Source: Aquificota bacterium
Lineage (GTDB): Bacteria; Aquificota; Aquificia; Aquificales; Aquificaceae
Direction: 5' to 3'
DNA: 64,000 nt
Assembly: GCA_030549905.1 (NCBI GenBank)
Contig: JAUQQK010000009.1
Location: forward strand, 1-64,000
The position numbers and the translations under genes are program-made. Shown piece by piece: positions 17,972 through 27,135 of this stretch. Numbering within the stretch: position 1 is the first letter of the stretch; each line of letters starts with the position of its first letter. Under the pieces are notes generated by a model that saw only the letters and a list, made by a program, of their open reading frames with translations, was not told where the DNA came from and made no database searches.

Positions 17972-18197
17972 CGCTGACAGGAGGAATTATGGCAACTTTT
18001 TCATCACCTTTGAGCTGGTAGTTTTCTTCCACATATTCTTCATTTACCGCAAACTTAACTTTTTCCAAAAGTTCTGACACCTCTGGATATTTTGTCTTTA
18101 ATAACTCTTTAAGTTCTTTAACCGTTCCTTTAAAATCAAGTTCCTCTTCGTTTTTCTTTAACTTTTCCCTTATGACCGCAAAATACAGAACTTTCAT
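17964..18197 (-). CDS. moaD: MoaD/ThiS-family sulfur carrier protein
   Basis: 77 aa, beta-grasp-like, C-terminal PPVSGG. Confidence 0.85.
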   Translation of the reverse strand: MKVLYFAVIREKLKKNEEELDFKGTVKELKELLKTKYPEVSELLEKVKFAVNEEYVEENYQLKGDEKVAIIPPVSGG

Positions 18198-18292
18198 TCT
18201 TCCAGCACCTCAGAGAGCTTTATCTTAAGTCCTTCTAAAAGTTCAAATTCTTCATCAAAGTTATAGACTTCTACTACTTTTGAGCCTTTTTT
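18188..18292. repeat. Copy A of a ~105-bp near-identical direct repeat covering the 3' end of a Uma2 gene and the start of the next gene
   Basis: Differs from 18721-18825 at 7 positions by eye. Confidence 0.85.
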
Positions 18293-18730
18293 GTGAAGAA
18301 AAGCTTTTTTGAGCTGTGGGTCTATAAGCAGAACTCTATCCACACCAAAGTCTAAAAGCTCAGAGACTTTTCTTTCAAGTTCCGTGTATGTGTTTGAAGG
18401 TGAAACTATCTCAATTACAAGCTCGGGAGGAACTTCTAACAAACCCTTAGGTTTTAACTTTGCTCTTTCCTTGCTTATATAGACTACATCTAATGCTCTT
18501 ATAGTAAGTGGCTCCCTCTTTATAACTATTCCTATTTCTCCCACCGCCACGTATCCTTTTCCTTTTAAACTCTTCTTAAGAAGACTGTAAAGCCCACCTT
18601 CGTACTCACCGTGCTCAAAGCTCGTAGGAGCCATCTGTACCACCTCACCATCTACTATTTCGTAAGAACTCTCAGGAAGGTTTCCAGAAAGATAATCTTC
18701 GTAAGTTATGAGCTTTTCCGGAACTTTCAT
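18194..18730 (-). CDS. Uma2 family (DUF820) putative PD-(D/E)XK endonuclease
   Basis: YEIVDGEVVQMAP...LDVVYIS...PPELVIEIVSPSNT...DRVLLIDPQ. Confidence 0.9.
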   Translation of the reverse strand: MKVPEKLITYEDYLSGNLPESSYEIVDGEVVQMAPTSFEHGEYEGGLYSLLKKSLKGKGYVAVGEIGIVIKREPLTIRALDVVYISKERAKLKPKGLLEVPPELVIEIVSPSNTYTELERKVSELLDFGVDRVLLIDPQLKKAFLHKKGSKVVEVYNFDEEFELLEGLKIKLSEVLEE

Positions 18731-18825
18731 TCTTCCAATACCTCGGAAAGCTTTATCTTAAGTCCTTCTAAAAGTTCAAACTCTTCATCGAAGTTATAGA
18801 CTTCTACCACTTTTGAGCCTTTTTT
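18721..18825. repeat. Copy B of the ~105-bp Uma2 3'-end repeat
   Basis: See copy A; both begin GAACTTTCATTCTTCCA and end GAGCCTTTTTT. Confidence 0.85.
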
Positions 18826-19263
18826 ATACAAGTAGGACTTTTTGAGGTGAGGATAAACCACCAGTACTCTGTCTGTGCCAGCTTCCAGAAGCTCCCATAC
18901 CTTTCTTTCAAGCTCTTCTGATGTATTTGAAGGTGATGCTATTTCAATTACAAGTTCAGGAGGAACTTCTAAGGCTCTGCCAGTTAGTTCTTTTAGTCTC
19001 TCTTTGCTAATATACACAATATCCAAGCCTCTTAGGGTAAGCGGATTTTTCTTAAGCACAATGCCTACTTCTCCTACAAGCACCCAGACTTTGCTTCTGG
19101 ACTTTTCCATTAGAAAGCCGGCAATTTTTGCTTCAATGTAGCCGTGCAATCCACCGGCGGGAGCCACTTCCACCACCTCACCATCTACTATCTCATAAAG
19201 ACCCTCTGGAAGCCTTCCCTCAATATAGTCTTCGTAAGTTATAAGCCTTTCCTTCAGCACCAT
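18727..19263 (-). CDS. Uma2 family (DUF820) putative PD-(D/E)XK endonuclease
   Basis: YEIVDGEVVEVAP...LDIVYIS...PPELVIEIASPSNT...DRVLVVYP; paralog of the downstream gene. Confidence 0.9.
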   Translation of the reverse strand: MVLKERLITYEDYIEGRLPEGLYEIVDGEVVEVAPAGGLHGYIEAKIAGFLMEKSRSKVWVLVGEVGIVLKKNPLTLRGLDIVYISKERLKELTGRALEVPPELVIEIASPSNTSEELERKVWELLEAGTDRVLVVYPHLKKSYLYKKGSKVVEVYNFDEEFELLEGLKIKLSEVLEE

Positions 19264-24339: not shown

Positions 24340-27135
24340 ATGCGTTTTTTAGAGAGGTTTTTTAAGAAAAGAGAGGAAAAAGCACATATACAGGTAGAAA
24401 CGCCCAAGGGATTGCTTACCTTTGATACAACTGACTTCCTTGAAAAGGACCCTGACGCAAGGATAGAGGAGTTCTGGATAGATGCCATGGATGTATCAGA
24501 AGATGGCTACTGGCTTTTGGTGGGCAGGAGGCATGGTGTTTTTCAGCTTTATGACTGGAGCGGTAAGCTCCACCGTCTTCCTTCAAGACCTCCCGCACAG
24601 GTGATAACAGAGATACTCTTTAAAGACAGCTATCTTGCCCTGCTTACACCACCCTATCTGGTGGTTTATCTCTTAGAAGACAGAAAAAACCCCAGCACGT
24701 GGAAGAGTTTTCGCACCACTCAGGAGGGCATAAGGGCTTCCAGCGGGCTTGATATAAGGGGAAGCCTTTTGGCTTACGGTGTGGTGGGTGAAAGGGTTTA
24801 TGTGATAGACATATCAGGAGGCTTTGGTTCTCAGGGATTGGATTTTAAGAGCGTTTTTTCTTATTCCTCCGCAAGCCTTGGTGAGCTAAAGGCTTTAAAG
24901 TTCATAAGCAGTAACAGGCTAATCCTGTCGGGCACCAAGGCTGTAGCTCTTTACGACCTTGCTGGTAATTTGATAAACAGGCTTGAAGTGCCTTCTGGCA
25001 AAGCCCTCTGCGTGCTAAAAGAAGGCATACTCCTTACGGAAGACAATCACATACACCTTTACGACATGGAGCTTAAAAACAGGCTAAAAAGCCTTGAAGT
25101 GCCGGTAAAAGTTTCTCAGATGGACTGCTCACCGGAGGAGGACTTTCTCTTCATGGCGGACGCAGAGGAAAACAGGCTTGGCATTGTCTATCTTCCCACC
25201 TTTGAATACCTGCATACCCTTGAAGGTTTTGGCTATTCGGTTTTGAGGCTTTCTCCAGACGGAACTATCTACACTTCCAGCCTTCTTGAGGAAGAGGATA
25301 GAAGGTTTTATCCTTTAAGAGCCATAAGGACAAATCTGATAGATTTCATGTATGACAGAGAAAGGCAGGAACAGCTGATAAAAAGGGCTGAAGAGGAACT
25401 AAAAAGGCTCAAAAACAGACTTAAAAAATGGTCTCCTGAGGAGGGCGAGCCTCAGGAGTATAAAAACCTTCTTTCCATGGATGCTCCAATAAGAAGGCTC
25501 AGGGAGCTTGTGTGGGAAGGAAAAGAGGCTTTAGAGCTTGCAAGGTTTGAAGCTTTCCTTTCAAGGATAGAGAAAAGCATTGAAGAGGGCAGGCTTACGG
25601 GTGAAGAACTAAAGGAAGTGGAGGAAAGGCTCAGGATAGAAGAAGGGCGGAGAAGGGAAAGACTGCTGGAACTCAAAGAAAAGGCTAATGAATACTTCAA
25701 AAGGGCACTTGAGGAAAGGTTTGAGGAGGTAAGAAAAGCCCTCAAAGGGCTTGACACGGAAGACATAAGAGACCTTGAAGCCCTTGAGGAGGTAAAAAGC
25801 TTAAGGGAGTTTATATCAAAACTTCCCAGAGACTTCTACGAACAGGCTCAGAAAGAACTAAGCTTGACCCTTCAGGAAAAACTTCTTAGGGACAGGCTCA
25901 ACAAACACAGGATTGTCATAGAGGGTCAGAAGGTCTTCTTTGGGTCTGAGGAGTTTCCTCGCTTTTCCGGGGAGAGGAGGCGGTTAAAGTGGCGTCTAAA
26001 GGTGGAAGACAGGCTCCTAATTCAGGACAGGCTTTATGCAAAGGTCGCCTTTGAGAGGGAAGATGGTCTTCTGTTGGAGCCAAAGAGGTATTCCAATTTG
26101 ATACCTCAGGAGGAGCTAAAAAACATACCCCAATGGGTAAGAAGGTATTTAAGACATCTGAACGGTCTTTTTGCCTATGAGCCTTACAGGCTACCTCTCT
26201 TTGTGTCCTATGAAGAAACCCCATGGTTTGTAAAGAACTTGGAAAAATTTGTGAGTCTTGTAAAGGAACAGCTCATGTATTCAGAAGGCATACTTATACT
26301 GGAGGGTGATGCGGGCGTTGGTAAAAACTTCCTTGTGGAGGTTTTTTCAGCCCTCACAAACAGACCCCTATACATAGTGCCGTGCAACTCTAAGATGGAA
26401 AAGGAGGATATCACCTTCGTATATGAGTTTGACCCAAAGAGGGGCACAAAAAGGGTCTATTCGGACCTCGTGAAAGCTCTGCAAACGCCCGGTGCGGTCA
26501 TTTACTTTGACGAGATAAACACGCTACCCGCCTCCATGATAAAGCTTTTTAATCCTCTCTTTGACTACAGGCGGTATCTTGCCCTTCCTACTGGGGAAGT
26601 TATTAAAGCCCACCGTGAAGTTATCCTCGTGGGTGGTATGAACCCGCAGAACTACCTTGGAGTTTCTGAGCTTCCGCAGGATATAAAATCAAGGGCTGAT
26701 ATTATCTTCATAGACTACCCACCCTTTGAGGACGAAAGGGGCTTTTACCACCCGGACGAAGCTATAATACTAAAGGACCACATGCAGGAGCTGGCAACCC
26801 TTAGCTTGGAGGACTTTGTGAGCCTCTGGCACCATGTTATAAACGGCATAAGGGTCAAGGATTTTGACAGGGTAGAGGAGTTTGAAGAACCGCTCCACAA
26901 GCTCTTTGAGCTTCTGAAAATTGCCAATGCCATAAGGAAGGCATACAGAGCTTATCAGACCCAGCAGTCAGAAGAGCCTGTAGATTTTGTCTTTTCGATA
27001 AGAGACACCATAAGATGTGCAAGAAGGCTCGGAAGGTATAAACAGGTAAAGGAGCTGGTGCTTGACACCATACTGCCCAAGGTAAGCTCCCCCCTTGAAA
27101 GGGAAGTGTTAAAAAACATTGTGGAAAGGTTATAA
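24340..27135 (+). CDS. Multidomain protein: beta-propeller-like N-terminus, coiled coil, MoxR/AAA_5-type AAA+ domain
   Basis: N-terminal repeated beta-strand blades; KR/E-rich helical region ~aa 330-510; LEGDAGVGKNFLVEVF (Walker A), AVIYFDEINTLP (Walker B), GGMNP sensor-like motif. Confidence 0.85.
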   Translation: MRFLERFFKKREEKAHIQVETPKGLLTFDTTDFLEKDPDARIEEFWIDAMDVSEDGYWLLVGRRHGVFQLYDWSGKLHRLPSRPPAQVITEILFKDSYLALLTPPYLVVYLLEDRKNPSTWKSFRTTQEGIRASSGLDIRGSLLAYGVVGERVYVIDISGGFGSQGLDFKSVFSYSSASLGELKALKFISSNRLILSGTKAVALYDLAGNLINRLEVPSGKALCVLKEGILLTEDNHIHLYDMELKNRLKSLEVPVKVSQMDCSPEEDFLFMADAEENRLGIVYLPTFEYLHTLEGFGYSVLRLSPDGTIYTSSLLEEEDRRFYPLRAIRTNLIDFMYDRERQEQLIKRAEEELKRLKNRLKKWSPEEGEPQEYKNLLSMDAPIRRLRELVWEGKEALELARFEAFLSRIEKSIEEGRLTGEELKEVEERLRIEEGRRRERLLELKEKANEYFKRALEERFEEVRKALKGLDTEDIRDLEALEEVKSLREFISKLPRDFYEQAQKELSLTLQEKLLRDRLNKHRIVIEGQKVFFGSEEFPRFSGERRRLKWRLKVEDRLLIQDRLYAKVAFEREDGLLLEPKRYSNLIPQEELKNIPQWVRRYLRHLNGLFAYEPYRLPLFVSYEETPWFVKNLEKFVSLVKEQLMYSEGILILEGDAGVGKNFLVEVFSALTNRPLYIVPCNSKMEKEDITFVYEFDPKRGTKRVYSDLVKALQTPGAVIYFDEINTLPASMIKLFNPLFDYRRYLALPTGEVIKAHREVILVGGMNPQNYLGVSELPQDIKSRADIIFIDYPPFEDERGFYHPDEAIILKDHMQELATLSLEDFVSLWHHVINGIRVKDFDRVEEFEEPLHKLFELLKIANAIRKAYRAYQTQQSEEPVDFVFSIRDTIRCARRLGRYKQVKELVLDTILPKVSSPLEREVLKNIVERL

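Follow-up and report, generated by a model that had tools for sequence, protein, structure and literature searches.

The locus raises the question of whether a MoxR-type AAA+ ATPase that carries a beta-propeller, and has no VWA gene beside it, belongs to a two-protein machine. The window (the whole stretch of 64,000 nucleotides that was analysed) contains one such gene, encoding a protein of 931 aa. In the reading favoured here, to which a probability of roughly two in three is given, this protein is the ATPase half of an Aquificaceae-specific MoxR-class AAA+/VWA remodelling machine, the other half being a 612-aa VWA protein. It is best read as a machine of the NorQD/CbbQO kind whose ATPase has a fused propeller serving as an additional docking module, and whose two genes lie apart.

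Gene and neighbourhood

The reading frame opens with ATG, and its orthologues can be aligned from a common start codon through the last residues (Table 1). Since the architecture and an unusual Asn in the Walker A motif are kept across Aquificaceae genera, the frame is a real gene, beyond chance.

Table 1. Features of the propeller-ATPase gene, in window coordinates
Feature	Residues (aa)	Position	Strand	Basis
Whole gene, propeller / helical / beta / AAA+ protein	931 in total	24340..27135	+	ORF; full-length orthologue alignment
WD40-like beta-propeller, probably seven blades	16-331	24385..25332	+	AF2 model; Foldseek; profile matches
Charged helical / coiled-coil region	333-522	25336..25905	+	AF2 helices; variable, mean identity 0.53
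Small beta domain	523-590	25906..26109	+	AF2 strands; invariant columns
AAA+ large subdomain	628-800	26221..26739	+	Pfam, Foldseek, profile alignment, conservation
Walker A, GDAGVGKN	656-663	26305..26328	+	Alignment, 44 sequences
Helix-2 insert region	688-707	26401..26460	+	Aligned with NorQ/CbbQ H2i; Y695 and T703 invariant
Walker B, VIYFDEIN	720-727	26497..26520	+	D724 and E725 invariant
Sensor 1	Asn768	26641..26643	+	Alignment to CbbQ/NorQ
Putative arginine finger	Arg785	26692..26694	+	Alignment to CbbQ/NorQ
AAA+ small (all-helical) subdomain and C-terminus	801-931	26740..27132	+	AF2 model; conservation

The first-pass annotation had named rng as the downstream gene. It is indeed found in the window (TIGR00757), starting 9 bp after the reading frame, but this adjacency is limited to the window's genus. 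The neighbourhood was therefore rejected as a pointer to the client, the run of rng, bamD, rsfS, TPR and MglA genes being kept in that genus only. Within the same genus-limited run, which joins rng, a bamD-like gene and rsfS, the segment 30824-32802 encodes an MglA-like small GTPase followed by a 469-aa protein, which by appearance is a DUF4388-type partner, and then by a response regulator and a histidine kinase. Elsewhere in the window (18194-19263) lie two tandem genes for 178-aa proteins, presumably Uma2/DUF820-like; they share an identical C-terminal stretch, GSKVVEVYNFDEEFELLEGLKIKLSEVLEE, which suggests recent duplication or gene conversion.

Domain architecture

The AlphaFold2 model of the protein was built from 44 homologues and reached a mean pLDDT of 85.9 with a pTM of 0.55, so the individual domains can be trusted, but not their placement relative to one another. 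The N-terminal segment was modelled with about 28-30 strands, and the blade count of seven comes from this strand tally only. It was followed by helices, by the small beta domain and by an AAA+ domain running to the end of the chain. Foldseek matched the N-terminal part to seven-bladed WD40 propellers, with TM scores of 0.65-0.69 for Gbeta, 0.74 for PkwA and 0.57-0.69 for Cdc20, and the profile search returned 1l0q, 5c2v and Atg16L1. The model and Foldseek thus agree on a closed, WD40-like propeller with four-stranded blades, and the suspicion that it was a misreading can be dismissed. Pfam did not call it reliably, the WD40-type matches being sub-threshold; AAA_5 was the only Pfam domain above its cut-off in the whole protein.

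The propeller, coiled coil and MoxR-type ATPase that had been proposed for this chain were accordingly all recovered, the predicted structure showing the propeller, but the small beta domain had been overlooked. That domain gave no family match and contains a set of invariant residues (W551, E556, F571, R573, D575, G576, E580, P581 and R583). Mean identity was 0.67-0.74 in the first, second and last parts of the propeller and 0.51 in the third, close to the value for the helical arm. Judging from sequence conservation, this pattern would fit a specific binding face carried on a spacer. The statement that no named family has this layout also stood, with no NCBIfam match, and a literature search (most subscription journals lay outside its scope) found no description of a propeller-on-ATPase or Aquificaceae family.

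Catalytic motifs of the AAA+ domain

The AAA_5 match (aa 652-785) scored 94.2 bits against a cut-off of 22, with E = 8.8e-27, and was obtained in all 44 members of the family. When the whole genome was searched with AAA_5, the propeller protein came far ahead with 98.9 bits, the runner-up scoring 49.6. The large AAA+ subdomain is the most conserved part of the chain (101 of its 173 columns at ≥95%), and in the small subdomain R888, R892 and R895 are invariant and are candidates for sensor 2. A helix-2 insert, as in the MoxR class, was modelled with strands at aa 693-698 and 702-707; the NorQ insert motif GRXLL, whose role in NorQ has been described (PMC13036017), is replaced by FVYEF.

The Walker A motif reads GDAG[VT]GKN in 44 of 44 aligned orthologues, D657, K662 and N663 being invariant, so the canonical GxxxxGK[ST] is absent throughout the family. 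This invariance rules out a sequencing error or a one-off mutation and indicates that Asn663 has been selected. Walker B, reported as intact, was found to be so, and sensor 1 and the putative arginine finger Arg785 are kept wherever the aligned orthologue extends that far.

The residue that Asn663 replaces is T or S in NorQ, CbbQ and most other relatives compared. Both GKN and GKD nevertheless occur among relatives, and GxxxxGK[ST] is therefore usual, not universal. An Alkalihalophilus relative ends its Walker A in GKD, and a 284-aa MoxR-like ATPase from another phylum (G233; L157:2906-3760) combines GPPGVGKN with the Walker B sequence FFDEIG, while its closest plasmid relative, from Neochlamydia, has GKT. 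The unusual Asn noted at first pass is thus a fixed family trait, but it is not unique. The GVGKN of G233 and the GKD of Alkalihalophilus suggest that the Ser/Thr has probably been replaced more than once in the superfamily. Eukaryotic VWA8 may also have a GVGKN-like Walker A.

Hydrolysis could be abolished by an Asn in place of the Walker A Ser/Thr. The ring would then be a nucleotide-stabilised platform, an ATP-binding scaffold that is compatible with a VWA partnership, and the occurrence of Asn at the Mg2+-coordinating position in 44 of 44 sequences agrees with this. Dead ATPases, however, usually lose some catalytic residues, whereas here invariance extends to the Walker A Lys, the Walker B Asp-Glu, sensor 1 and the Arg finger, and the GVGKN protein of G233 retains FFDEIG. 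A hydrolysis-dead scaffold is consequently regarded as unlikely. As every other catalytic residue is invariant, Asn663 more likely tunes the ATPase than kills it; from the sequence we infer an enzyme that is modified rather than decayed.

Relatives of the AAA+ domain

Among the solved structures, the profile search placed CbbQ (E 3e-16) and NorQ closest to the AAA domain, and the best Foldseek matches were AfCbbQ2 and NorQ, NorQ-NorD complexes included. The assignment to the MoxR type was in this way upheld, together with the AAA_5 score. Aligned by hhalign with a NorQ/CbbQ alignment, the domain gave E 3e-18. Its plasmid-borne relatives are mostly annotated as members of the CbbQ/NirQ/NorQ/GvpN family. 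At most of the NorQ/CbbQ-type plasmid loci compared, a VWA/NorD gene adjoins the ATPase gene or lies one gene away, and the same was seen, next to or near a NorQ/CbbQ-type ATPase gene, in two unannotated genomes.

When 23 AAA domains were placed in a tree, which has long branches, those from the Aquificaceae grouped as a single clade (99/99) that lies outside both the NorQ and the CbbQ clades, its stem being about 3 changes per site long. The phylogenetic check called for by the first-pass annotation thus gave a clade of its own, separate from both. The domain is closest to NorQ/CbbQ, as judged among solved structures and the plasmid proteins searched, yet a member of neither. NorQ and CbbQ proper are single-domain proteins of about 260-310 aa encoded beside norD or cbbO; the protein described here has 931 aa and a propeller, and the VWA gene is unlinked.

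Distribution

Strong matches to the propeller-ATPase among 136 Aquificota genomes were confined to the Aquificaceae, where nearly all members have it, usually as one gene per genome. The 72 Aquificota genomes of other families gave generic AAA matches only. A profile search of 391 genomes from 261 genera found no full-length match beyond the Aquificaceae, only AAA-domain relatives; about 255 of the genomes searched lie beyond Aquificota, which makes this a sample and no census of all bacteria. A clear match was present in 10 of the 11 Aquificaceae genera, some as contig-end fragments. The ATPase was not found in the single genome of genus g6, which is 69% complete and has the VWA protein.

A scan of a genome-contig collection returned Aquificaceae/Aquificota records and one labelled Acidobacteria. 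The latter (L008, 'Acidobacteria bacterium J001') contains the Aquificaceae gene with the entire neighbourhood of genus g1, so its organism label is probably wrong. In two other genomes (G002 and G054) the ATPase and VWA genes are both broken by stops or split frames; this is probably poor assembly, though both genes are hit together.

An unlinked VWA protein

MoxR ATPases usually sit next to a VWA partner, and the absence of one here had been pointed out at first pass. None is adjacent, but a partner of the NorD/midasin type with a matching phylogeny is probably encoded on another contig. A search of the genome with VWA_2 gave no match, and VWA_CoxE gave a weak match outside the window which led to a 612-aa protein (G000:C12:74070-75905, minus strand; L098:8068-9906). 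When this protein was scanned directly with Pfam, VWA_2 and VWA both scored above their cut-offs; the negative from the VWA_2 model alone would have misled. It is the sole VWA protein in the genome with the models tried. Weak VWA matches were also seen in two other genomes: frames in G202 resemble a BatA/BatB pair, and a match in G272 yielded nothing further on follow-up.

In the 612-aa protein a helical N-terminal domain and a flexible linker precede the pre-VWA 'finger' segment, and the VWA domain lies at the C-terminus. The MIDAS motif DxSxS...T...DG is complete, with D440, S442, S444, T509, D540 and G541 invariant. The best PDB profile match was the MIDAS domain of midasin, which begins some 90 residues ahead of the VWA core, unlike integrin-like matches, which begin at the core. 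Foldseek placed the Rea1/MDN1 MIDAS and the NorD VWA at the top. Compared with NorD/CbbO by hhalign, using the finger boundaries of the NorQD structures (PMC13036017), the protein aligned over aa 374-597, i.e. finger segment plus VWA, with E 8e-11; its N-terminal half gave no alignment to NorD, the profile alignment starting at aa 374. The finger segment is thus aligned to both NorD and midasin, as for a NorD-type partner, and is modelled with low confidence (aa 389-430).

Evidence linking the two proteins

The VWA protein is found only in the Aquificaceae and in all 11 of their genera; the range that it shares with the ATPase is largely one evolutionary event. Across 64 Aquificaceae genomes, 54 have both genes, 4 the ATPase only, 3 the VWA gene only and 3 neither. 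The co-absence gives a Fisher p of 0.014, a value that ignores phylogeny, is dependent on assembly gaps and comes from three genomes, one 99% complete and two below 90%.

The pairwise distances of the two proteins over 15 genomes were correlated with r 0.99, or 0.89 without the fast-evolving genus g10, and the partial correlations were 0.96 and 0.87. The correlations of the pair with encapsulin and COX1 were 0.4-0.8, these two controls being the only ones used and either perhaps transferred between species. In genus g10 both the ATPase and the VWA protein have evolved fast (36% and 29% identity), the controls standing at 63% and 55%. In short, the genome has a NorD/midasin-type VWA protein whose distribution and divergence both follow those of the ATPase.

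The two genes were never adjacent in the genomes compared, and no neighbour of the VWA gene was conserved across genera. That no VWA gene adjoins the ATPase in any genome compared would also agree with a self-contained machine, in which the propeller substitutes for the VWA partner and the VWA protein of the genome is unrelated; the strong conservation of propeller parts I, II and IV, consistent with a client-binding face, points the same way. Such a machine would leave unexplained why the genome's one NorD/midasin-type VWA protein shares the range and the absences of the ATPase, diverges closely in step with it and possesses the finger segment of an AAA partner. We consider it quite unlikely, and a two-protein machine is preferred.

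The surroundings of the VWA gene raised the idea that the pair acts on a family 1 encapsulin shell, by loading or remodelling it. In the window's genus the VWA gene directly follows the encapsulin gene with a 4-bp overlap (L098:8068-10751), the two are also adjacent in one further genus, and among 64 Aquificaceae genomes 59 encode an encapsulin. However, the genes are not adjacent in the other genera compared, the sister family has encapsulin but not the ATPase-VWA pair, and the divergence of encapsulin does not track the pair. Moreover, it is missing from G034, a 99% complete genome with the pair, and kept in G018 and G055, which are without it. Encapsulin handling is thus very improbable. 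For heme-copper oxidase (COX1), the genomes G018 and G006 speak weakly against the role of obligatory client, for they keep COX1 although they lack the pair.

Comparison with known systems

Like the 931-aa protein, NorQ of the NorQ-NorD systems of Paracoccus and Jhaorihella (PMC9976466, PMC13036017) is a MoxR AAA+ protein, of the nearest known lineage, and NorD resembles the 612-aa protein in having an N-terminal domain, a linker, a finger segment and a C-terminal VWA with MIDAS. NorQ differs in its size (about 270 aa), in lacking propeller, helical arm and beta domain, and in a Walker A that ends in GKT; its gene is adjacent to that of NorD, beside the NO reductase genes, and the client, cNOR, is known. 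In the NorQD structures the VWA domain sits on the ring, a finger reaches into the pore and lies against the helix-2 inserts, and the C-terminus of the VWA rests on the post-sensor-1 loop; when ATP is used, the NorD linker is remodelled and metal insertion becomes possible (PMC13036017). The parts of this machine, save GRXLL, are recognisable in the Aquificaceae pair, the additions being the propeller, the helical arm and the beta domain.

In the rubisco activase CbbQ-CbbO, CbbQ is the best-scoring solved AAA relative and its partner CbbO contains a VWA domain. CbbQ differs by a Walker A of GKS or GKT and by having no propeller on the ATPase, and the Nitrobacter copy lies in a carboxysome cluster. 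Midasin/Rea1, a dynein-type AAA protein related through its MIDAS domain, holds six AAA domains and the MIDAS in one chain and serves eukaryotic ribosome assembly; there the propellers are on the clients, Rsa4 and Ytm1 being WD40 propeller proteins.

Propeller, MoxR ATPase and vWA also occur together in the beta-propeller ternary systems, subsystem 4 of the vWA-MoxR conflict systems (Kaur et al. 2020, PMC7159879), and these three shared kinds of domain are what would suggest a defence or conflict function. In those systems, however, the propeller (about four blades) follows the vWA on the C-terminal side and is also present in a third protein, but not on the ATPase; GXXXTAKS is a frequent P-loop there, and the third component varies greatly. 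The Aquificaceae protein carries the propeller on the ATPase, has GDAGVGKN as its P-loop and is unlinked to the VWA gene; it is encoded by a single-copy gene kept family-wide, and PADLOC gave no match of note. A conflict system of this type is therefore extremely improbable. Propeller-MoxR-vWA systems with the propeller on the VWA component are thus known; what appears to be new, within the literature searched, is the propeller on the ATPase side.

Proposed mechanism and significance

By analogy with NorQD, the AAA+ domains would form a ring on which the VWA domain docks, with the finger of the VWA protein entering the pore and meeting the helix-2 inserts. ATP turnover would then twist or pull the VWA protein, remodelling a MIDAS-bound client. 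The propeller, on its long helical arm with the small beta domain, would provide an extra docking surface around the ring and may recruit or orient the client, so that its role as a built-in substrate adaptor, suggested at first pass, is plausible. Asn663, in place of the Mg2+-coordinating Ser/Thr, would tune the ATPase, by slow turnover or by an altered Mg2+ dependence. A more elaborate version is put forward tentatively, as less likely than not: a MoxR ATPase that has permanently exchanged the P-loop Ser/Thr for Asn without loss of turnover, recruits clients through up to six propeller heads on its ring and works, together with an unlinked midasin-like VWA protein, on a complex needed by Aquificaceae only.

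MoxR-VWA machines serve to insert metals or to remodel large enzymes, and for few of them is the client known. If the proposed pairing is right, the VWA partner of a 'lone' MoxR gene may be encoded at an unlinked locus. The family would also offer a natural, deeply conserved test of an AAA+ ATPase working without the Ser/Thr that holds Mg2+. For the Aquificaceae, it would mean that a family of thermophilic chemolithoautotrophs keeps a dedicated, single-copy MoxR-VWA machine with an adaptor-like propeller on the motor.
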